Below, piece by piece: positions 324-17,537 of a stretch of 64,000 nt of DNA. The notes under the pieces were generated by a model. It was given only the letters and a program-made list of their open reading frames with translations, did no database searches and was not told where the DNA came from. Source of the DNA: a virus; IMG/VR virus record IMGVR_UViG_3300044527_000952, positions 1 to 64,000 of that record; one strand, written 5' to 3'. Every line of letters begins with the position of its first letter. The stretch's first letter is position 1. The position numbers were made by a program, and so were the translations under genes.

Positions 324-1739
324 ATGAATAAAGTCATTGAAATAAAACGTGAGGGCGATCTAAAAAATACAGTGTGTCAATTTGCATGGGATTATAGTGT
401 ATTAAATATCTCACGTAACGAATTACGTAATTGTTGTCGTTCACGAAGTCATAAAATACTACCTGAGGATTGGCGATTAGAGCGTGGACTATTTACGCAC
501 TTCCCACCTATTGTTAATGTGCGTAAAGATATGTTACGTGGTATACGCAATGAAGCATGTGGCGTATGTTGGGATATTGAAGATAGTGGTGCAAAAAGTG
601 CTAGAACAAGTTGGGATAGATTTGTCAACTTCATACAATCTAAAAAACTGTGGCCTACTTTATCACGTGATGAACTAAAAGAAAAGTTACAAAGTTTGAA
701 TGATAATGAAATAGAAATGCTAAGTCGTTTACCTCATACTAATATGATTGAAATTAGTTTAGGTAATATATGCGATTTAAAATGTTTATATTGTCATCAC
801 CATTATAGCTCACAATGGGCAGCAGAAGTTCTTAAATATGGTGAAATCAAGCCTGAAGAAATGGAAGCAGAACTTCCTAAAATTAAAGATACGATATATG
901 AAACATATTGGTGGGATTGGTTTGAAAACGAAAGTGGTTGGAACACTTATTGTATTAACTTTATTGGTGGTGAACCATTAATTATTGAAAAATTTTATAG
1001 CTATGCGGATAGAATATGTCAGTTTTATGAAGACCATAAGACTGAACAGAAGAATATAGATTTTAGTATTGTTACTAATTTCAACACACCTAAAAAGTTT
1101 TATGATCGCTTTTTAGATACAACGATGCGTATTGTTGCGGTGGAACAATTTACATTGGACTTTAACGTAAGCTGTGAAAGTATTGGCAAACGTGCAGAAT
1201 ATATTCGTACGGGCACTGATTGGGAAGTCATGACAGAAAATATAGAACATTATATTGAGTTTATTAATTTGATTGATCCTGAACAAAAGCGTATTATTTT
1301 TAATCTTCAAGTAGCGTTGAATGCATTGTGTATTTCAGATTTACCAAACTTTATGCGTTGGATCATTGATTTACAAGAGCGCACTAATAGAAAAATACAT
1401 TTACGTCAAAACCAAGTTAGTCATCCACATTGGCTAAGTCCATATATTTTACCCACTGAGTATTCAAAATATGTACAAGAAGCTATTGATATTATGGCAG
1501 AATCATTAAAAACATCTAAAGTTTCAGCAGGTACTTATAATTTATTTGGTCGATGGGATCATTATATGAGTTTCTTACAAACAGTAAAACGTGGGTTAGA
1601 AAATCCTGAAAAAAATACTAAAGCAAGAATAGAGTTTGCTGAGAATGTTGAAAAAATGCGTCAAAGACGTAATTTAAACTTTGAAGCTACATTCCCTGAA
1701 ATGATTCCATTTTTAATTGAGTGTAAAAAATTATCATGA
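324..1739 (+). CDS. Radical SAM protein with N-terminal twitch-like Cys region, subfamily A
   Basis: A 471-residue radical SAM enzyme. Cys150-x3-Cys154-x2-Cys157 (CDLKCLYC) is the SAM [4Fe-4S] motif and GGEP (215-218) is the SAM amino-group motif. Upstream lie Cys18, Cys37-Cys38 and Cys79-x2-Cys82-Trp, a pattern expected to bind an auxiliary cluster as in N-terminal twitch radical SAM proteins. It ends in an ATGA overlap with 1736, so the two are translationally coupled. It is paralogous to 4250..5605 (same N-terminal Cys layout, TFPE-type C-terminus). The substrate is unknown; neighbours suggest protein or glycan modification. Confidence 0.85.
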   Translation: MNKVIEIKREGDLKNTVCQFAWDYSVLNISRNELRNCCRSRSHKILPEDWRLERGLFTHFPPIVNVRKDMLRGIRNEACGVCWDIEDSGAKSARTSWDRFVNFIQSKKLWPTLSRDELKEKLQSLNDNEIEMLSRLPHTNMIEISLGNICDLKCLYCHHHYSSQWAAEVLKYGEIKPEEMEAELPKIKDTIYETYWWDWFENESGWNTYCINFIGGEPLIIEKFYSYADRICQFYEDHKTEQKNIDFSIVTNFNTPKKFYDRFLDTTMRIVAVEQFTLDFNVSCESIGKRAEYIRTGTDWEVMTENIEHYIEFINLIDPEQKRIIFNLQVALNALCISDLPNFMRWIIDLQERTNRKIHLRQNQVSHPHWLSPYILPTEYSKYVQEAIDIMAESLKTSKVSAGTYNLFGRWDHYMSFLQTVKRGLENPEKNTKARIEFAENVEKMRQRRNLNFEATFPEMIPFLIECKKLS

Positions 1740-3082
1740 ATTGGGATGAATATAAACGAGCAATAGCAGAAAATAGATTATTTGAATACATTGATCATGA
1801 ATATCAATGGGGGTTATCTAAGACTGAAGATTGGGAATCTTCTATACCAAGTAACTTTTGTGTTGCACCTTTTGTTAATATGACAATTACATCAGAAGGA
1901 ACTAACCGTCCATGCTGTAAATATGACGCATTTAAATCAGATGATTCTACCGAAACGGTAGCCAATACATCATTGATTAAATTATATAACAGTGATGAAA
2001 TTGAATCGCTTCGTGAGCAATTCATGAAAAACGAAAAACCCGACAAATGCAAAGTATGTTGGCTTGAGGAAGATAATAATATTAAAAGTTTAAGACAGTT
2101 ATATAATCATAATTGGATAAACAAACCATCATGGGGAAAACCACCTGAACCCAAGAAAGTAAATTTTGCTCAAGCATTTTACGGACAGCCAACTAATTTA
2201 GATTTAAAGTTGAGTAATTTATGTAATTTACGATGTAGAATTTGTGGTCCATGGTCAAGCACACAATGGATTAAGGATTATAACAACTTAGGTTGGGCAG
2301 ACAAACGTGCAATTAAAGTATGGACTGAAAATGCAAAAGAAAAACTATTAGTCAGTGATGAAAATAAACAAATATTAATGACTTGGGCTGAACGATTGTT
2401 ACGTATAGAGTTTTTTGGTGGTGAACCTATGATGCAACAAGAACACCATGACGTATTAGATTTGATGATAAATTCAGGTTCAAGTGAAAAACAAGCATTA
2501 TGCTATAACACCAATGGTACTATCTTTAGTCAAGATATCGTTGAAAAATGGCTTAATTTTGATTTTATTGTGGTAAATTTTAGTATTGATGATATCGGTC
2601 AACGTTTTGAATATCAAAGAAAAAACGCTGTATATCATGAAGTATTAAGTAATTTAGAAAATTATAAATTACTTTCATCACTATATAATTTTAAACATAA
2701 ATTTTTCATTTATATCACTGTAAGTATTTACAACGTTTTTTACCTTAAAGAAATTATTGAAGAACTTAGTTATTTGGAATTTCCTTTTATCTTAAATATA
2801 TTGCATCACCCACAAGATTTATCGATACTAAATATTCCAACTACTATAAAAAAAATAATAACAGAAAAACTTGCAGATGTTAGCAATGTAAACTATCACA
2901 CTCAAACCATTAAAGTAAATGATATTGTTGAATTTATGAATAGTAAAGAGTATGATGAAAAAGAATGGGTTAAATTTTGCAATTATAATACTAAAGTTGA
3001 TGGGTTAAGAGATGAAAAATTTAAAAACATATTTCCTGAATTTTATGAATTAATATTAGATGAAATACCAAGAATTTTATGA
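1736..3082 (+). CDS. Radical SAM protein with N-terminal twitch domain, subfamily B
   Basis: 448 residues. The SAM cluster motif is Cys163-x3-Cys167-x2-Cys170 (CNLRCRIC), followed by GGEP. The N-terminal twitch signature is Cys42-APF, Pro-Cys60-Cys61 and Cys105-x2-Cys108-Trp, typical of the N-terminal twitch radical SAM family. The start overlaps the stop of the previous gene (ATGA), as does the next gene, giving a coupled three-gene string. The C-terminus again has F-P-E-F. Substrate unknown. Confidence 0.85.
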   Translation: MNWDEYKRAIAENRLFEYIDHEYQWGLSKTEDWESSIPSNFCVAPFVNMTITSEGTNRPCCKYDAFKSDDSTETVANTSLIKLYNSDEIESLREQFMKNEKPDKCKVCWLEEDNNIKSLRQLYNHNWINKPSWGKPPEPKKVNFAQAFYGQPTNLDLKLSNLCNLRCRICGPWSSTQWIKDYNNLGWADKRAIKVWTENAKEKLLVSDENKQILMTWAERLLRIEFFGGEPMMQQEHHDVLDLMINSGSSEKQALCYNTNGTIFSQDIVEKWLNFDFIVVNFSIDDIGQRFEYQRKNAVYHEVLSNLENYKLLSSLYNFKHKFFIYITVSIYNVFYLKEIIEELSYLEFPFILNILHHPQDLSILNIPTTIKKIITEKLADVSNVNYHTQTIKVNDIVEFMNSKEYDEKEWVKFCNYNTKVDGLRDEKFKNIFPEFYELILDEIPRIL

Positions 3083-4257
3083 AAGTATTATGTAGCGCAC
3101 CATTTAATAGTTTAACTATTAATCCCAATAAAAGTGTAAACCCATGTTGTGCATGGGATTATAAAAAATCTGTTGGAAATCTAAACTTACAATCAATACA
3201 AGAAATTAGATCTAGTCCGTTGATGAAGGAAGTCAAGCAACACATGCTTGATGGTGTATGGCATGCAAGTTGCCGACATTGTAAACATCGTGAAAACGAA
3301 ACTAACACTAGTGTTCGATTAAATGTTTATAATAAAATACCTTATGATGAAACAGAAAAGATATTATATCTTGAATACAGTAGTACAAATACTTGTAATT
3401 TGGCGTGCTCAATGTGTGACGAAGATTGGAGTAGTACGTGGGTAGAACTATCTAATAAACATGGTTGGAACAATGATGGAAAGTATAAAATAGAACCTAT
3501 AAACCGTGATGTTGCACAGAAGTTGTTAGATAATATTGATTTATCAAATTTAATGACACTTTGGTTAAAGGGTGGTGAGCCATTCTTAAACAAAGAAAAT
3601 ATATTAGTATTAGAAAAATTAAAAGATATTGGTCAATTACCTAATGTTAATATTATGGTCACTACAAATTGTACTGTTATTAATGAGCCTATTTTAGAAC
3701 TATTAGAATTAGCTAAACAAGTTACGTTTGTTTGTAGTATTGATGCAGTAGGTATACTAAATGAATGGATTAGATTTGCTCCAAATACACAATTTAAAAG
3801 TAATACTGATAATATTACAAAAACATTGAAGCGTTTTTCATCTTTAAAGAATTTAAGCCATTTAACATTAAGTTGTGCAGTATCTGTTTTTAATATATTC
3901 AACTTACATGATCTAAGATTATGGTGGGAAAATGAAATTGTGCCTTTGTTTGCACATAAACTTAAAGAGGTAGGACCTAAAAAGGTTAGATTTGTTCATT
4001 TTGTTGTTGGTCCTGAAAATCAATCAGCAAGAGTTCTTACTCAACAGACATTAAATAATTTGATAGACTATTATACAAATTTGCATGTGAATCATAATCA
4101 TCACTATGAAACTGTCATTGAATATTTGAAAAAAGGTTACCTTGGAAATAAAATTCATAATTCATGGGTAAGTAGAACCGAGATATTAAATAAACTTAGA
4201 CCTTATAGAATAGAGGATATTGTCCCACAATTAGTGGATGAACTAATTACTAAGTAA
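3079..4257 (+). CDS. Radical SAM protein with N-terminal twitch domain, subfamily B
   Basis: 392 residues. N-terminal Cys5-SAPF, Pro-Cys23-Cys24 and Cys65-x2-Cys68 form the twitch-type auxiliary cluster site. The SAM motif is Cys106-x3-Cys110-x2-Cys113 (CNLACSMC), followed by GGEP (LKGGEPFL). Coupled to 1736 by ATGA overlap. Its 3' end converges on and overlaps by a few bases the 3' end of the minus-strand radical SAM gene at 4250. Closest relative in the window is 1736..3082. Confidence 0.85.
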   Translation: MKVLCSAPFNSLTINPNKSVNPCCAWDYKKSVGNLNLQSIQEIRSSPLMKEVKQHMLDGVWHASCRHCKHRENETNTSVRLNVYNKIPYDETEKILYLEYSSTNTCNLACSMCDEDWSSTWVELSNKHGWNNDGKYKIEPINRDVAQKLLDNIDLSNLMTLWLKGGEPFLNKENILVLEKLKDIGQLPNVNIMVTTNCTVINEPILELLELAKQVTFVCSIDAVGILNEWIRFAPNTQFKSNTDNITKTLKRFSSLKNLSHLTLSCAVSVFNIFNLHDLRLWWENEIVPLFAHKLKEVGPKKVRFVHFVVGPENQSARVLTQQTLNNLIDYYTNLHVNHNHHYETVIEYLKKGYLGNKIHNSWVSRTEILNKLRPYRIEDIVPQLVDELITK

Positions 4258-5605
4258 TCCATTCACTAAATTGCGGAAATGTTTTCAAAAAATTTGTATT
4301 TCTGCGATTATCTAATTCTTCAAAAAATATGGCAACTTCTTCACCCATATCTTTAGTTTCATTTATTGAACGATTGACTAATATAGCATCACGTGTTTGT
4401 ACTAAAAAATCTCTAAATACTACCCAATTATTATAAGGTTTAACTTTTTTATATCGTTCATCATTAAGTAGTTCGTTAAAGGTGTTAATGGGTGCATCAA
4501 GATATTGGGCAAACTCTTTTGGTGCATTCATTGGGCTTTGTTCTTTAGGCCAAGTAACAATGTTTCTATGAATATGAATAGGGTAATAAGTTTCAACACA
4601 ATGTTTAAAATAATCAGTATACTTATATAATGATGGTAACCCAACTAAGTTAATACATGGCATAAAATCTATAGATACTAAATCTTGTAATGACAATAAT
4701 TTTTCTAGATTATTTTTAAATCGGTTCCACTTTACACCATATCGTATGTACTCAAGTTCCTCTCCAATATTTTCACCACTTACTTGTATGATGACATTAA
4801 AATGTTCATTAAGTTTTGGTAGATAAGCTAAAAACTTTTTGAAATATGCCTCAGGTGTGTTCATATTAGTAGTAATACATAACTCGATCTTACTAATACC
4901 ATCACCATTTAATAAGTTTTCTACAGGTTGTAATCTTGGGTTTTTATTATGTATCTCGATAAGTTTATCAAAGCATTCATAAATTAAATCAGTAATAAGT
5001 GGCTCACCACCGATAAAACCAAACCGTATCAATTGTTTCATACCAACATCTGTGTACCATTGCCAAAACAATTCTTCTACTCTAGGGTCACGTGAACCAA
5101 TTTGACTACTTTCACGTGTCATTGCAATATTAAATTTTTTCTTTTCAGCATACCATTGTGTGCTATAATGTTCACTACAATAGGTACACTTAGCATCACA
5201 TGTATTATTAAGTACAATTTCTATAATATTAGCATAAGAACTTAGTTCTAAAGATGCATTAGTCAGTAATTCGTTTTTTGATTGTGGTTTATGACCTGTG
5301 TTACGATGCATGTATTCTTCAAATTTAATATCATTACGTGCACTTTTAAATCCTTTATTCTCTAAACTCCAACATGTATTACAATCACTGTGTTGATGAT
5401 TACGTAATAAACTATTCCTACGTTCAATATGTTCAGGCAGATTAGAAAACAAATCACTACCAAAAGATTGATATATTTCAGGAGTAATTTTTGTTCGCTC
5501 TGTTCTACAACAATATGTAAAACTAGGCTCACTCATATAGAATAGCAAGTAATCCCAAGCATAATTACACAATGTGTTAGGACGGTCGGGATAAATTGGT
5601 ATCAT
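4250..5605 (-). CDS. Radical SAM protein with N-terminal twitch-like Cys region, subfamily A
   Basis: 451 residues on the minus strand. N-terminal Cys13, Cys32-Cys33 and Cys75-x2-Cys78-Trp repeat the layout of 324..1739. The SAM motif CDAKCTYC lies near residue 140 and is followed by FIGGEP. The C-terminus N-F-L-K-T-F-P-Q matches the family. The start overlaps the TGA of 5602..6657 (ATGA), so the two minus-strand radical SAM genes form one unit facing the plus-strand trio. Confidence 0.85.
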   Translation of the reverse strand: MIPIYPDRPNTLCNYAWDYLLFYMSEPSFTYCCRTERTKITPEIYQSFGSDLFSNLPEHIERRNSLLRNHQHSDCNTCWSLENKGFKSARNDIKFEEYMHRNTGHKPQSKNELLTNASLELSSYANIIEIVLNNTCDAKCTYCSEHYSTQWYAEKKKFNIAMTRESSQIGSRDPRVEELFWQWYTDVGMKQLIRFGFIGGEPLITDLIYECFDKLIEIHNKNPRLQPVENLLNGDGISKIELCITTNMNTPEAYFKKFLAYLPKLNEHFNVIIQVSGENIGEELEYIRYGVKWNRFKNNLEKLLSLQDLVSIDFMPCINLVGLPSLYKYTDYFKHCVETYYPIHIHRNIVTWPKEQSPMNAPKEFAQYLDAPINTFNELLNDERYKKVKPYNNWVVFRDFLVQTRDAILVNRSINETKDMGEEVAIFFEELDNRRNTNFLKTFPQFSEWIT

Positions 5606-6657
5606 TTACGATCACCAAACAAAACATAATGTTCAGGTGCATATCCTTCCATAATTTCTGCACCACTATCATCTTCGGGTTTGGCAAACTTATTTTGCAT
5701 ACCTCCACGAATTGGTACAAATGCCCATGTACATAACTCAGTAAAATGTGGTATGCGTTTTAATTCTTCTTCTAGTGATAAAGATTCTTCAACATATTGT
5801 GGTGGCATCATAAATTTTACTTCAAGATGACCTACATTAAAGTTATTAGCTTTATACTTTTCATCTGTTACAGCTTCTACAACTTTAACAAATCTTGCTC
5901 GATCATAAAACTCAAAATGCACTGATAAGTTTAAATCACCATAATGTATAACCTCACGGTAATAGTCAGGCTTACGTGAACCATTACTGTGTAAGCTAAC
6001 ATGATGACCAAATGCGTTTAAATATCGTAACCAATCTAGAAAATCTTTATTAACCGTAGGCTCACCCCCACTAATAATAAAGTTAACACTATCACCATGC
6101 ATAAACTTTTCTTCAAGTAAGTTAGTTGCTTTAATTAAATCTTCTAATGGCTTATGTGGATCAGTATTGTTATGTATCCAAGGCCAACAATAAGAACAAT
6201 CGTAATTACATCGTCTGCCAATTTCCCAATAAATTTGTTTTTGGTTACTAGCATGTGTACGTTCCATAGCTACAAAGTTTGTAAGTTCAGGATTATTTCT
6301 ATCCATCAAGGTGTCTAATTCTTGACTTTGACGCAATAGTATGATTTTCTTTTCATCGGCTGCTTTAGGGATGAATAAATCTGCACCACATGAACAAACA
6401 TTTTTAGTACAATCAATCCATTTATTGGGTACTTCAAATGTATCCCATACACTGCCTAAGCGTCCACCAACACGGCAACTTGCAGTCCATACATATCCAT
6501 CCATATCAATGAATAAGCTATCGACACCTGCCCCGCATTTCCATCCTTGTAAGTAATTTAATTTTGCACCAACGAGTTCATCAGTGCTCCAATCTCGCCA
6601 ATTACCGTTGTCATCATAGGTACGAATTGGTTTACCTGCTGTTTTATGTAATCCCAT
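5602..6657 (-). CDS. Radical SAM protein with divergent N-terminal Cys region
   Basis: 351 residues. The SAM motif is CNYDCSYC, followed by W-P-W and then ISGGEP. About 100 residues upstream carry separate cysteines (K-C-G-A-G, S-C-R-V-G-G, C-T-K-N-V-C-S-C-G) that could hold an auxiliary cluster, spaced differently from the four other paralogs. First gene of the minus-strand pair. Shares a divergent promoter region with the giant repeat protein at 6703. Confidence 0.85.
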   Translation of the reverse strand: MGLHKTAGKPIRTYDDNGNWRDWSTDELVGAKLNYLQGWKCGAGVDSLFIDMDGYVWTASCRVGGRLGSVWDTFEVPNKWIDCTKNVCSCGADLFIPKAADEKKIILLRQSQELDTLMDRNNPELTNFVAMERTHASNQKQIYWEIGRRCNYDCSYCWPWIHNNTDPHKPLEDLIKATNLLEEKFMHGDSVNFIISGGEPTVNKDFLDWLRYLNAFGHHVSLHSNGSRKPDYYREVIHYGDLNLSVHFEFYDRARFVKVVEAVTDEKYKANNFNVGHLEVKFMMPPQYVEESLSLEEELKRIPHFTELCTWAFVPIRGGMQNKFAKPEDDSGAEIMEGYAPEHYVLFGDRK

Positions 6658-11932: not shown

Positions 11933-11940
11933 CATAAATA
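11933..11940 (+). promoter_or_regulatory. T4-type late promoter octamer
   Basis: CATAAATA upstream of the BMP lipoprotein, with a separate Shine-Dalgarno (AAAGGA) before the ATG at 11966. Confidence 0.5.
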
Positions 11941-11965: not shown

Positions 11966-13102
11966 ATGATTTTAAATAAGCGAAAGCTTTTTAGTGCGGT
12001 ACTTGCTATAACTGCAGTACTTACGCTTGCAAGTTGCGGTAAGAAAGAAGAAACAGCACCACCTTCATTAGGAAAAGATGCCCCCAAAACCACTGAACCA
12101 CTAAAAGTAGGATTTATTTACGTTGGGCCTGTTGGCGATGCAGGGTGGACATTTGCTCACGACAATGGTCGTAAGCATATTGAAGCTAAGTTTGGTGACA
12201 AAATTAAAACTACGTTTGTAGAGAAAGTACCTGAAGGTGCTGATGCTGAACGTGTTATTCGTGATTTAGTTAGCCAAGGTAATAAACTTATTTTCGCTAC
12301 ATCATTTGGTTTTGGTGATGCTATGGAAAAAGTAGCTAAAGATCATCCTGATGTTAAGTTTGAACATGCAACAGGTTATAAGACTGCAGAAAATTTACGT
12401 GTATATGAAGCTAAATTTTATGAAGATGCTTATATGGCAGGTATTGTTGCAGGTAGTATGACAAAAACTAATACGCTAGGATTTGTAGCGAGCTTCCCTA
12501 TTCCTGAAGTTTTGCGTAATATCAATGCGTTTACTATGGGAGCAAGAAGTGTTAATCCTAAAGTTACTACTAAAGTTGTTTGGGTAAACACATGGTTTGA
12601 TCCACCTAAAGAAGGTGAAGCAGCACAAGCTTTGATCAATCAAAAAGCAGATGTATTGTTACAAAATACAGATTCTACTGCGGTATTGCTTACTGCTGAG
12701 AAAAATGGTAAATTTGCTTTTGGTTGGGATAGTGACATGAGCGCATTTGCTCCTAAAGCACATCTTGGATCAGCCATTGTTAATTGGGGACCATACTACG
12801 AAAAAGCAGTTGGCGAAGTATTAAATGGTACGTGGAAAACTGCGGATACCAAATGGGGAACCAAAGAAGGTGCTAATGATTTAATTAAGATTAATGATGT
12901 TGTTAGCGATACTGCTAAGAAAAAGGTTGAAGAAGTTAAAGCAGGATTAAAAGCAGGTACTTTTGAAGTATTTAAAGGACCACTTAAAGACAATACAGGT
13001 AAAGTTGTATTAGAAAAAGATATGGTTGGTGATGATGCATGGAAAGGTAGGATTAACTTTTACATTGAAGGTGTAGAAGGTAAGATTCCAAGCGGTAAAT
13101 AA
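11966..13102 (+). CDS. BMP/PnrA-type substrate-binding lipoprotein
   Basis: 378 residues. A lipoprotein signal peptide ends in L-A-S-C with lipidated Cys24. The mature part has the BMP (basic membrane protein) family fold: V-G-F-I-Y-V-G-P-V-G-D-A-G-W-T near its start, F-A-T-S-F-G-F-G-D central, and F-G-W-D-S-D-M. BMP proteins bind nucleosides or related small molecules for ABC import. It would sit in the periplasm and feed a host transporter, since no permease is seen here. Flanked by a late promoter and a hairpin. A metabolic gene probably acquired from a bacterium. Confidence 0.9.
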   Translation: MILNKRKLFSAVLAITAVLTLASCGKKEETAPPSLGKDAPKTTEPLKVGFIYVGPVGDAGWTFAHDNGRKHIEAKFGDKIKTTFVEKVPEGADAERVIRDLVSQGNKLIFATSFGFGDAMEKVAKDHPDVKFEHATGYKTAENLRVYEAKFYEDAYMAGIVAGSMTKTNTLGFVASFPIPEVLRNINAFTMGARSVNPKVTTKVVWVNTWFDPPKEGEAAQALINQKADVLLQNTDSTAVLLTAEKNGKFAFGWDSDMSAFAPKAHLGSAIVNWGPYYEKAVGEVLNGTWKTADTKWGTKEGANDLIKINDVVSDTAKKKVEEVKAGLKAGTFEVFKGPLKDNTGKVVLEKDMVGDDAWKGRINFYIEGVEGKIPSGK

Positions 13103-13146: not shown

Positions 13147-13362
13147 GTGAATAATTATCATATAAGATATAATACACAGCATGCTGAATCTGATTTAGTA
13201 TGGCGCATTTTTGAAAATGGTACAGAACATTTAGTAAAAAACTTTCATATCACTGTGCCAATGTATGGTGAATCGACCATAGAAAATGGTATACAAAAAT
13301 GGAACGTAGCATGCAAAGGTGTAATGAAAATTGTTGATGGTGTAGCGATTATTGAACCTTAA
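13147..13362 (+). CDS. Conserved phage hypothetical protein
   Basis: 71 residues with a GTG start preceded by AGGG. The sequence (Y-H-I-R-Y-N-T... D-L-V-W-R-I-F-E-N-G... I-T-V-P-M-Y) resembles a small protein I recall from T4-like phages of aquatic bacteria. No function known. It ends 3 nt before the tmRNA promoter. Confidence 0.65.
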   Translation: MNNYHIRYNTQHAESDLVWRIFENGTEHLVKNFHITVPMYGESTIENGIQKWNVACKGVMKIVDGVAIIEP

Positions 13363-13365
13363 TAC

Positions 13366-13394
13366 TTTACAGTTTATAGAAATAAATATATACT
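13366..13394 (+). promoter_or_regulatory. Sigma70-type promoter of the tmRNA gene
   Basis: TTTACA, 17-bp spacer, TATACT. A start site near 13401 would fit the 5' end of the acceptor piece. Confidence 0.7.
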
Positions 13395-13400
13395 GTAAGT

Positions 13401-13700
13401 TATTGTTGTATGAAGTTGATGGAAAAGTATTGCGGACGGGGCTTCGATGCCCCCTGGTCCACCAAGTATGCTAGTACGGTAGCAATAGTGTGAGTGACTA
13501 CTGTCTTGTGCGAGTCAAGACCATACCTTATGGGCCAGACATGGTTTCGACGGGGTAACAAGTACTAATATGGACAACACGATAGGCGAAGAACGTAATT
13601 CTAGCAAATCAAATAATCGCAAATGACGATTACTTTGGAGAAGTTCGCTTAGCTGCGTAACCTCCACGAGGTAGGAAAGACCTTGTAACCAAACCCACCA
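13401..13700 (+). ncRNA. ssrA: Permuted (two-piece) tmRNA
   Basis: The tRNA-like 3' piece comes first: T-stem GGGGC/GCCCC (13438-13453) with loop TTCGAT, acceptor strand CTGGTCC (13454-13460), then A and encoded CCA (13462-13464). After a 67-nt intervening segment the 5' piece begins at 13532 with GGGCCAG, which pairs with CTGGTCC with one G-U, followed by the diagnostic GGTTTCGACGGGG. The tag frame starts at GCA 13619 and reads ANDDYFGEVRLAA, ending TAA 13658-13660. CAAGTACT (13559) can pair with AGTATTG (13426), and ACAAC (13574) with GTTGT (13405), as the P2 helix joining the pieces. tmRNA rescues stalled ribosomes and tags the peptides for proteolysis. The exact ends of both pieces are estimates. 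Confidence 0.9.
13465..13531 (+). other. Intervening segment of the permuted tmRNA
   Basis: 67 nt between the encoded CCA and the 5' end of the coding piece, presumably removed by host RNases as in bacterial two-piece tmRNAs. Confidence 0.7.
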
Positions 13701-13727
13701 ATAGGGGCATTCGTGCCCCTATTTTTT
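13701..13727 (+). terminator. Rho-independent terminator of the tmRNA
   Basis: Nine-bp stem ATAGGGGCA/TGCCCCTAT with a TTCG loop, followed by a T run. Confidence 0.9.
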
Positions 13728-13784: not shown

Positions 13785-14702
13785 ATGGCTAAAGGCGCAA
13801 CAACAATTACAATTAAAGACAATCCAATTAATGAAACATATAATAACGTTACAGGACTTACAGGTGGTACAGATCTTGGAGCGAAATTTGATGTAGTAAA
13901 AACTGATGGTACATATGCAGTTACTCTTGATTCAGCACCAACTAGCGCAGGTGCAGGATATCAAGCAGGAGATACCATTACAATTCTCGGAACAGATCTT
14001 GGTGGTGCTTCTCCACAAAATAACTTAATTGTTACCGTAGGCACTGTAGGCGTAGGCGGTAAAGTTGCTACTTTTGGTACAGTTGGCAGTGGTCGAGTTG
14101 GTGATGGTGTTATTGATATTAATATCGATATTGAAGGTTCAACAGGCATTGATGCATATCGTGTATATGGTGATAGCACTGATTACGGTATTTCATACGA
14201 TGAAGGTGATATTATTGCTACAAGCCATTTAGTTCCAAATTTGACTTTTACAATGCATGATCACGAACGTGTACAATTTGATGATAAACATCTTGCATTT
14301 GACACTGTTGATAGTGATTTAGGACAAATTATTGCATTAATGGCTGCAGCAATTGGTGAGGATGATGTTACACCTGAATATATTGGTGCAGGTATGTACT
14401 TGAGAGAAACACTTGGTTGGAGCATTAAAGAAATTGCTGCAAAAATTTTAACAAGTGATGAATATTTAGATGATGCAGGTGATGCAAAAAATGCAACATT
14501 TGCTAAACACGTATGGAAAAATACATTTGGTCGTGATGGTACATATGATGAAATTGCTATGGTAGTAGAAGTTATCGAAAAGCATGGTTATTCACAGGCT
14601 GATGTGCTCATGGTTGCTGCAAGTCGTGAAGAATTATTAAATGTAATTGATTTAGTTGGTATGCAAACTACAGGTGTAGAATACGTTCCATTCGGTGGTT
14701 AA
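13785..14702 (+). CDS. Probable virion or adhesin-like protein with C-terminal DUF4214-like region
   Basis: 305 residues. The N-terminal two thirds is Gly/Asp/Thr-rich, beta-type, with no Cys (T-I-T-I-K-D-N-P... G-Y-Q-A-G-D-T-I). The C-terminal about 100 residues are helical (I-A-A-K-I-L-T-S-D-E-Y-L... W-K-N-T-F-G-R-D-G), resembling DUF4214-type modules of surface proteins. Isolated by terminators on both sides, with a late promoter and good ribosome-binding site, so probably highly expressed late. Exact role unknown. Confidence 0.65.
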   Translation: MAKGATTITIKDNPINETYNNVTGLTGGTDLGAKFDVVKTDGTYAVTLDSAPTSAGAGYQAGDTITILGTDLGGASPQNNLIVTVGTVGVGGKVATFGTVGSGRVGDGVIDINIDIEGSTGIDAYRVYGDSTDYGISYDEGDIIATSHLVPNLTFTMHDHERVQFDDKHLAFDTVDSDLGQIIALMAAAIGEDDVTPEYIGAGMYLRETLGWSIKEIAAKILTSDEYLDDAGDAKNATFAKHVWKNTFGRDGTYDEIAMVVEVIEKHGYSQADVLMVAASREELLNVIDLVGMQTTGVEYVPFGG

Positions 14703-15210: not shown

Positions 15211-16530
15211 ATGAAACCCATAACTTTCTTATATGATCAAGAACCATTTGTAGAAACAGATGGTTCTTATTTTAGTAAACAACTAAACGCACATATACCA
15301 ATTAATGGTTTAAGTATAGGACAAATTAAAAAAGCAAATACAGAAAAATTAGCAATGTTGCAACAACGACATACTATTGGATTATTTGCAAAAGAAGTTT
15401 TCTTACCTATACCACATATCTTATCATATCATTGTGAAGTAAAACATTGTTCAATAAATTCAGCTAATGGTAAAGCTATTTACGAATTGCGAGTACGTGC
15501 CCCTTTAGAATTCATTGAATATTGTGAATCCAATGAAAATGTTCTTAAATTATTACCATCGAATTTAGTTGATTCTATTAACTATGGGAGTACATTACTT
15601 TTATATAAAGAAATGCAAGATTATAGTTATGAAACAAATAAGTTCTTACGATTAAAAACTCTTTTTATAGATGCAGGTATAGACATAAACAATGTTATCA
15701 TATTATCTAATGAGTGCCATAAAACTATTGACACTTATGATATGAACGTCATCTTTTGGGATTTTTATCAAAGTGTTGTGCGCTATGATATGCCCTATGA
15801 TTTACAAACAGTAAACCAACATTATGATTACAGAATAAACAATGATAGTAAACGGTTTATATGTTTAAATCGTGTACCAAGATCACAACGAGTTGCATTT
15901 GTTTATTTTTTATACGCACAGAAGTTATTAAAATATTTTAATGCAAGTTTGTCTAATTTAATGGAATTTACCGGAGATACTAAGAAAAGATCTTTTAATT
16001 ATGCCACTCCGCTTATGAAGTCTATTGTGACTTATAACGAAGCAAATTTTGAAAAATTTAAAAAAATATTACCATTACAATATGATCAAGATGACCCTAT
16101 GAAGTTTTGGAGTTGGGATATTTACAATGAAAACATGTGTAAAAATAATCATATCTTTATTGTAACCGAAACATGGTGGAATGAAAAACCATTACCTATA
16201 TTAACAGAAAAAACTTTTAAATCAATTGCATTAAAGATGCCATTTATTTTACTCGCACAACCACATTCATTATCTAAACTTAAACGTGATGGTTATCAAA
16301 CATTCAGTGAATTATGGGATGAAAGTTATGACAGTGAGGAAGATGATGTAAAAAGATTTACTAAGGTATGTGCATTAGTTAAAAAACTATGTAGTATGTC
16401 AGATACAGCTTTTATGAGCATGATTGCAAAAAGCAAATCAATAGTAGATTATAATTATGACATACTAAAAAATAATACAAAAGATCAAGAAATAGTAGAC
16501 AATTTAATTAAATGGAACAATACTCCTTAG
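15211..16530 (+). CDS. Putative glycosyltransferase-like protein
   Basis: 439 residues. The best clue is the C-terminal third: L-T-E-K-T-F-K-S-I-A-L-K-M-P-F-I-L, then G-Y-Q-T-F-S-E-L-W-D-E-S-Y-D, a pattern I associate with fucosyltransferase/exostosin-type sugar-nucleotide sites in large viruses and phages. The N-terminal half is not recognisable. The 3' end overlaps the radical SAM/SPASM gene at 16512 by 19 nt. A role in glycan decoration is an inference. Confidence 0.5.
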   Translation: MKPITFLYDQEPFVETDGSYFSKQLNAHIPINGLSIGQIKKANTEKLAMLQQRHTIGLFAKEVFLPIPHILSYHCEVKHCSINSANGKAIYELRVRAPLEFIEYCESNENVLKLLPSNLVDSINYGSTLLLYKEMQDYSYETNKFLRLKTLFIDAGIDINNVIILSNECHKTIDTYDMNVIFWDFYQSVVRYDMPYDLQTVNQHYDYRINNDSKRFICLNRVPRSQRVAFVYFLYAQKLLKYFNASLSNLMEFTGDTKKRSFNYATPLMKSIVTYNEANFEKFKKILPLQYDQDDPMKFWSWDIYNENMCKNNHIFIVTETWWNEKPLPILTEKTFKSIALKMPFILLAQPHSLSKLKRDGYQTFSELWDESYDSEEDDVKRFTKVCALVKKLCSMSDTAFMSMIAKSKSIVDYNYDILKNNTKDQEIVDNLIKWNNTP

Positions 16531-17537
16531 TTGCAAGATGGCTACAAGGTCATATCCCTAAAAAAATATTACCATGGCAAATAGATATTGATACAACTAA
16601 TATTTGTAATCAAGATTGCTATTATTGTTACACAAGTGATTTTAGAGAACAACAACCTGTATATCAAACGTCTGAACAATACATTAAGTTAATAGATCAA
16701 TTGTACCATTGGAGTGAACATGATCCAAACACAATTGGTACCATATCAAATGTTATATTCAGTGGAGGAGGTGAGCCAACATTGTTACCACGTTACGAGG
16801 AAGTAATTGAGCATACGATTGATTGTGGTTATGTTGCTGCCATGAATACCAATGGAACAAAACTAGATAAGTTATTAACTATATCACCACATAAACTTAA
16901 ACGTATGGCATATATAGGGTTAGACATTGATAGCGCAATTGAATATACATATGAAGAAATTAGACGTAGTAAAATGACTCAGAGTCCTTTTAGTAAGGTT
17001 AAAGAAATAGCTAAAGAGTTAGGAAAAATGGGCGCACCTATTGATATCAAAGCATTGCTTATGCCACAAAATACAACTGATGATGAAATACGAGCACTAG
17101 TATTATATGCAAAAGAAGTTAATGCTAGAGAGATACATGCTAGACCTGTTGTATTAAATGAAGAATGTTTTACTGTTACACCTAGTATAATAAAAACATT
17201 TGAGCATTATGCGTCTATTTATAACGTTAAAGTTGATATAAGGTTGGCAAGAATAGGTGCACGAGATTATAAACAATGTCATCAATTTTTTCTATTTCCA
17301 TCATTCTCTGCTGATGGTAAAATTTATGTATGTTGTGAATATAAAGGTAGGAAAGATATTTGTTTAGGATCGTGGGTAGATGATGATTGGCGTGATTTGT
17401 GGTGTGGTGAAAAACACAAAGAAATATATAAACATTTCAAGACTGTTTTTTGCAGACCATGTAGACCAAACCACACCAATAATCAAATAGAATATGCCTT
17501 AAAAGATTATAACAAAGTATTACGTGGTTTTATATAA
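16512..17537 (+). CDS. Radical SAM/SPASM-type enzyme
   Basis: 341 residues. The SAM cluster motif is CNQDCYYC near residue 34, followed by FSGGGEP. The C-terminal third has C-H-Q-F-F, V-C-C-E-Y, D-I-C-L-G, L-W-C-G and C-R-P-C, a SPASM-like auxiliary cluster set. Unlike the 0.3-6.6 kb paralogs, its extra cysteines are C-terminal. Overlaps the glycosyltransferase-like gene and converges with the papain-like gene at 17530. Substrate unknown. Confidence 0.8.
   Translation: MEQYSLVARWLQGHIPKKILPWQIDIDTTNICNQDCYYCYTSDFREQQPVYQTSEQYIKLIDQLYHWSEHDPNTIGTISNVIFSGGGEPTLLPRYEEVIEHTIDCGYVAAMNTNGTKLDKLLTISPHKLKRMAYIGLDIDSAIEYTYEEIRRSKMTQSPFSKVKEIAKELGKMGAPIDIKALLMPQNTTDDEIRALVLYAKEVNAREIHARPVVLNEECFTVTPSIIKTFEHYASIYNVKVDIRLARIGARDYKQCHQFFLFPSFSADGKIYVCCEYKGRKDICLGSWVDDDWRDLWCGEKHKEIYKHFKTVFCRPCRPNHTNNQIEYALKDYNKVLRGFI

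Follow-up and report, generated by a model that had tools for sequence, protein, structure and literature searches.

A permuted tmRNA gene of a probable jumbo phage, and relatives with protein genes between the two RNA pieces

Results

The locus and its phage

The window, by which we mean the whole 64,000-nucleotide stretch analysed here, covers bases 1-64000 of a 93,057-base IMG/VR virus record (G000). The large terminase of this record is 73-77% identical to those of many IMG/VR contigs and 92% identical to one, and the nearest named phages by this protein are the jumbo phages PA5oct and Paride (51%), Phosso (50%) and Atu_ph07 (52%, over part of the protein). The record also encodes UvsX, UvsY, a phage SSB and an ATP-dependent ligase. 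Because of the terminase kinship and these four genes, the record probably represents part of a T4-like jumbo phage genome. The region of interest contains the following features, all on the plus strand.

11966-13102, +: PnrA-like ABC transporter substrate-binding protein (Bmp; PF02608, E 1.4e-56), upstream flank
13147-13362, +: 71-aa ORF adjoining the tmRNA upstream; a homologue is the cargo of the L303 intervening segment
13366-13394, +: sigma-70-like TTTACA-N17-TATACT; hexamers present, not above chance, not conserved in relatives
13382-13388, +: ATAAATA, a T4-late-like motif and candidate promoter, 19 nt upstream of the putative 5' end of the RNA
13401-13464, +: acceptor piece, from the RF04321/RF01850 alignments, the sequence and our parser; 5' end approximate, CCA at 13462-13464
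13438-13453, +: T arm, inside the acceptor piece; loop TTCGAT, 6 nt
13465-13531, +: 67-nt intervening segment; non-coding here, a protein-gene slot in relatives
13532-13699, +: coding piece; acceptor strand 13532-13538, 3' end approximate
13619-13660, +: tag reading frame ANDDYFGEVRLAA plus TAA, read from the sequence
13700-13727, +: intrinsic terminator; 10-bp stem at 13700-13723, TTCG loop, T run
13785-14702, +: 305-aa gene product, downstream flank

The gene at 11966-13102 served to retrieve syntenic relatives; that a phage encodes a PF02608 PnrA-like protein at the upstream flank of a tmRNA region is an observation in its own right. We also noticed that six proteins of the radical SAM type are encoded not far from the tmRNA (window 324-6657 and 16512-17537), three of which are twitch-domain proteins scoring over the NF033640 cut-off.

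Anatomy of the permuted tmRNA

The Rfam covariance model RF04321 (tmRNA_permuted) matched positions 13404-13660 over its full length (1-213 of 213) with 118.3 bits (E 1.8e-22; gathering threshold 47), and RF01850 (beta_tmRNA) matched 13353-13725, terminator included, with 107.3 bits against a gathering threshold of 84. Judged by these models, the stretch 13404-13660 is a permuted tmRNA and a member of the family. A sequence-only reading of this DNA had claimed such an RNA in a virus and had named a covariance search as the check, and the two scores agree with it. The CCA at 13462-13464, the GGGCCAG that begins at 13532 and the GGTTTCGACGGGG that follows, on which that reading relied, can all be read directly in the sequence. 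The acceptor strands 13532-13538 and 13454-13460 pair at 7 of 7 positions and, as it also stated, with a single G-U (13534:13458). This pair corresponds to G3 (13534):U70 (13458), the alanine identity pair recognised by AlaRS, and A73 is present. The tag frame ANDDYFGEVRLAA begins with an Ala codon and ends in LAA and a stop, and the predicted piece sizes of ~64 and ~170 nt are compatible with the sequence anatomy.

Two P2-type pairings had been proposed to connect the pieces. GTTGT/ACAAC is part of the Rfam structure (13404-13408 with 13575-13579), whereas CAAGTACT/AGTATTG is absent from it; instead, the structure pairs 13428-13434 with 13551-13557, and this helix covaries across 143 relatives. 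The window shares with the RF04321 and RF01850 families the piece order, acceptor, T arm, P2 and tag, while it differs in a G-G mismatch within P2 and in its T arm, which has a 5-bp stem and a 6-nt loop (TTCGAT) rather than the canonical 7-nt loop found in most relatives. The same T arm was seen again in L211, L208 and L227, and is thus not an error of one contig. The 6-nt loop is a variant detail within the tolerance of the family models and no defining failure. ARAGORN missed the tmRNA gene in the window, plausibly because of this loop. The intervening segment was also considered as a tRNA: relaxed ARAGORN gives a Leu-like cloverleaf, which we rejected as its fold was no better than shuffles, and an Rfam scan of the locus, in which overlapping clan matches were suppressed, reported no tRNA in the segment.

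Promoter and terminator

The sequence-only reading had assigned the RNA its own promoter and terminator. The TTCG-loop terminator was borne out, with 8 terminator-like sites in a 2.9-kb region against 1.7 in shuffles. As for the promoter, the sigma-70 hexamers do exist, but shuffles of the same region give 11.1 such sites and the region itself holds 8; the pair is also not conserved among relatives, and we rejected it. Several relatives have the RNA directly after a gene or tRNA. The motif ATAAATA is rarer than chance over the whole window (20 sites against 45) and concentrated ahead of genes: 12 of the 20 precede a same-strand start by at most 50 nt, where the expected fraction is 0.028, with a p-value that is indicative only because the start list consisted of mechanical ORFs plus the tmRNA start. 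Examples of sites in the window are at 11934, 13748, 14748, 39621, 41163 and 42755. Close relatives carry a similar AAATAAATA ahead of the RNA. These patterns suggest that the ATAAATA at 13382-13388 is a likelier tmRNA promoter than the sigma-70 pair.

Covariation and tags among phage relatives

Of 28 records that have a flanking gene in common with the window, 20 scored over the RF04321 cut-off, as did 8 of 23 terminase relatives, many of which are fragments. The clade pattern TGTATGAAG-N6-GAA-N10-GAC, combined with the parser, yielded 146 distinct phage permuted tmRNAs after exclusion of one outlier. All 146 acceptor stems pair at 7 of 7 positions; 16 different forms occur, and pairs 4-6 change on both strands. 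Since the parser accepted only stems with at least 6 pairs and G3:U70, the constancy of these two features is partly built in, which does not apply to the variety of compensated forms. When acceptor partners were exchanged between phages, 7 of 7 pairs formed in 24%. P2, which the parser did not use, forms 6.7 of 7 pairs with its own partner compared with 5.7 when swapped, with replacements GC/AT and TA/AT/CG. The TGTATGAAG element is common to the phage copies; it did not appear in 31 of the 32 bacterial loci with a permuted tmRNA. (A contig search pattern also matched standard tmRNAs, which share the T arm, and was used only for reaching bacterial genomes.)

The relatives contain 57 tag types, nearly all of which end in AA, with a few in LAANA or similar. 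Ends of the form LLAANA or LVAANA occur in L205, L283, L301, L306, L275 and L291, and may change ClpXP recognition. We also observed that the T-loop variants GGCAGTG and TGCGAAT tend to accompany a D-loop GGATCGATT in place of GTTTCGAC (L282, L264, L263, L261 and others), as if the two loops were co-varying.

Protein genes between the two pieces

The phage intervening segments measure 23-382 nt (median 76) and are longer than the bacterial ones: the CCA is followed by 4-47 nt in 31 of the 32 bacterial permuted tmRNAs that were parsed, and by 115 nt in the remaining one. The span of 101 bacterial matches is at most 337 nt, and the bacterial segments sampled are short and non-coding. About 30 of the 146 phage relatives have a coding segment, with ORFs of 23-122 aa; some of these were assigned by reading the translations, and the ORFs of L235, L310 and L345 were excluded as doubtful. 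The typical layout is CCA-tAAGGA-spacer-ATG ... TGA-t-GGG, in which the Shine-Dalgarno (SD) sequence usually stands immediately (1-2 nt) after the CCA and the frame stops 1 nt ahead of the coding piece.

The strongest coding evidence comes from L303 and the ORF at 13147-13362. The two proteins are identical at 53 of 71 residues (75%), their genes differ at 13, 8 and 33 nucleotides by codon position, and in the window this gene immediately precedes the tmRNA, while in L303 it is contained within it. Homologues outside the segment were likewise found for the cargo of L366, L336 and L320. The cargo of L261, L299 and L343 are mutually homologous membrane peptides, those of L214 and L219 are membrane peptides homologous to each other, L207 and L210 carry a 55-aa protein, and L205 and L206, which are closely related to the window phage, carry an 83-aa membrane protein. 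L308 encodes an 86-aa CxxCxxCC protein (Pfam E 1.3e-6, above cut-off) and L267 a 122-aa protein; the latter was suspected by eye to be an acetyltransferase, which Pfam did not support. It is very improbable that the cargo ORFs are chance open frames of a variable spacer: in segments shorter than 80 nt, SD+ORF combinations are indeed no commoner than in shuffles (1 against 3.0), but segments of at least 80 nt contain 21 against ~2.5 expected from dinucleotide shuffles, those of at least 150 nt have a spanning ORF in 12 of 12 cases, the L308 product is a Pfam match, and homologous cargo is found again in different phages as well as away from the tmRNA, the longest such pair showing third-position bias.

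The ends of the segments pair with each other (own score 20.9 against 11.0 when swapped, sd 3.5), and in coding segments this closing stem usually includes the SD. Because the SD sits in the stem, translation of the cargo may be held back until the stem opens. In L261, L299, L343 and L316 the cargo frame extends beyond the expected cut, so that the processed message would be without a stop codon. The clade that includes the window RNA is a new form of the permuted tmRNA gene, able to hold protein genes between its two pieces.

ClpX, ClpP and SmpB

Two further genes of the record lie beyond the window.

67346-68599 of the record: ClpX (TIGR00382, 501.8 bits against a cut-off of 370.75)
74131-74727 of the record: ClpP (PF00574, E 1.5e-77; PRK00277, 302.9 against a cut-off of 249)

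ClpX is full-length, with the C4 zinc finger (PF06689), the AAA+ domain (PF07724) and the GYVG, RKH and IGF loops in the alignment. ClpP is also full-length, and its Ser-His-Asp triad can be seen by eye in the alignment; against the TIGR00493 clpP equivalog model it scores 293.4, under the cut-off of 308.6, and it is a member of the ClpP subfamily uncertified as equivalog. Among 36 records checked for co-occurrence, tmRNA, ClpX and ClpP are found together in G000, G001, G007, G015, G032, G038, G391, G392, G395 and Phosso, and all six tmRNA-bearing records larger than 250 kb that were tested have both proteins. PA5oct and Atu_ph07 have ClpX without an RF04321 match, and HTVC008M and the menderaviruses have the RNA without ClpX or ClpP; by gene content, then, the link between tmRNA and ClpXP is not obligate. 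Tags that end in LAA are ClpXP degrons.

No SmpB was found in 39 records searched, the window record included, many of which are fragments; host SmpB would therefore be required. The suggestion of the sequence-only reading that the phage tmRNA redirects ribosome rescue is a reasonable one.

Discussion

A probable working phage gene with a variable slot

For processing, charging, timing, tagging, ClpXP coupling and cargo translation, we infer the following scheme. The locus would be a working permuted ssrA gene of a jumbo T4-like phage, a reading to which we give a probability of roughly 0.75. A single transcript, running probably from the ATAAATA promoter to the TTCG terminator, would fold so that the acceptor piece pairs with the coding piece, and host tRNA-processing enzymes would excise the intervening segment to leave a two-piece tmRNA. 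Host AlaRS would charge this RNA via G3:U70, host SmpB would carry it to stalled ribosomes, and the stalled chains would gain Ala plus ANDDYFGEVRLAA. With their LAA end, the tagged chains could be degraded by the phage ClpX and ClpP or by those of the host. Since the intervening segment is discarded, it would be free to vary, and the lineage seems to accommodate either structured RNA or a small protein gene there.

A more ambitious version, which we offer tentatively and think rather unlikely, makes this a composite gene. Here, cutting of the precursor would yield both the two-piece tmRNA and a small mRNA with its ribosome-binding site in the closing stem, coupling cargo synthesis to tmRNA maturation; the product of L261, L299, L343 or L316, whose stop lies past the cut, would itself be a trans-translation substrate; and the phage's own ClpX and ClpP would make up a near-complete tag-and-degrade pathway minus SmpB. 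In a simpler account, about as likely as not, the cargo genes are real but parked in a slot that tolerates insertions, with tmRNA maturation and cargo expression uncoupled. Parking fits with cargo that is diverse, unrelated between phages and has homologues outside the tmRNA, and with the fact that non-coding segments are common too, whereas the recurrent placement (SD 1-2 nt past the CCA, stop 1 nt ahead of the coding piece, SD within the closing stem) speaks against it, although this may reflect slot shape only.

Alternatively, the phage RNA could act as a decoy, binding the SmpB of the host and thereby blocking its trans-translation; this has been proposed for the DS6A phage RNA, which lacks a tag (PMC11915505). 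The lack of an SmpB match in the phage records, and competition with the host tmRNA for SmpB, would suit such a role. We consider it improbable in that a decoy has no need of a tag, while full tag frames with AA ends and stops are retained in nearly all relatives. Still less probable is that the gene is a passenger, a host tmRNA acquired by the phage that never functioned or no longer does. Phages do acquire tmRNA fragments, as discussed in PMC9004378, and the presence of the RNA is patchy, with matches in 8 of 23 terminase relatives, a set that includes many fragments. However, the compensatory acceptor and P2 changes in 146 phages, the intact tags with stops and the synteny in 20 of 28 records indicate selection on the RNA, and the TGTATGAAG element unites the phage copies apart from nearly all of the bacterial loci.

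For the working ssrA gene that we prefer, the presence of phage ClpX and ClpP in the same genomes gives a concrete lead on the purpose of phage permuted tmRNAs, which were already known: proteins from ribosomes stalled on decaying messages may be sent to a phage-controlled protease. The protein genes fitted exactly between the RNA pieces would be an example from nature in which tRNA-type processing of a single transcript yields both an mRNA and a stable non-coding RNA.

Comparison with known systems

The sequence-only reading was aware of no well-described phage example, which is contradicted by PMC9004378 and PMC11915505, and in our own searches HTVC008M and the Stenotrophomonas menderaviruses scored over the cut-off. 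PMC9004378 describes a two-piece tmRNA in the Methylophilales phage Melnitz and 53 two-piece tmRNAs suggested by ARAGORN in phage genomes, and PMC11915505 lists 79 phage tmRNAs. The bare claim of a phage permuted tmRNA is not new, because Melnitz is already published. ClpX and ClpP have been reported in jumbo phages (PMC7824862), and a study of Sinorhizobium jumbo phages found a tmRNA together with Clp genes in AP-J-162 (PMC11242549). Our search, confined to the open-access literature and to the terms used, turned up neither a description of protein genes within permuted tmRNAs nor one that treats phage tmRNA and phage ClpXP as a single pathway.

Like the window, Melnitz, a lytic myophage, has a complete permuted tmRNA. 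That RNA is described as standing under a glutamine riboswitch, for which the window has no Rfam match, and neither a cargo gene nor a ClpXP link is reported in the available text on Melnitz (PMC9004378). Isolates with parts of the present system exist in Phosso and the menderaviruses. The menderaviruses (Marzo, our L002, and Bhz51) have a permuted tmRNA that scores 119 bits, contains the TGTATGAAG element and is located in a tRNA cluster, and they lack ClpX and ClpP. The host family of these phages has the standard one-piece tmRNA: in 38 of 40 genomes the RF00023 score exceeds the cut-off.

Phosso and AP-J-162 of Sinorhizobium are, as here, jumbo phages with tmRNA and Clp genes (PMC11242549). 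In Phosso, which has both ClpX and ClpP, RF04321 scores 113 bits at the following position.

349596-350198 of PV764938.1, minus strand: Phosso permuted tmRNA, missing from the deposited annotation of that stretch

Its intervening segment of ~400 nt looks non-coding and seems to contain two closed RNA domains. PMC11915505 also describes permuted genes with an insert in the intervening sequence, a tRNA-Ala in one gene and a repeat in another. The first of these genes, in GCA-2688965__sp002688965.2, resembles our phage relatives in having a gene within the intervening sequence; its cargo is a tRNA-Ala and is unique according to the authors, whereas the phages described here carry protein genes, and do so recurrently.
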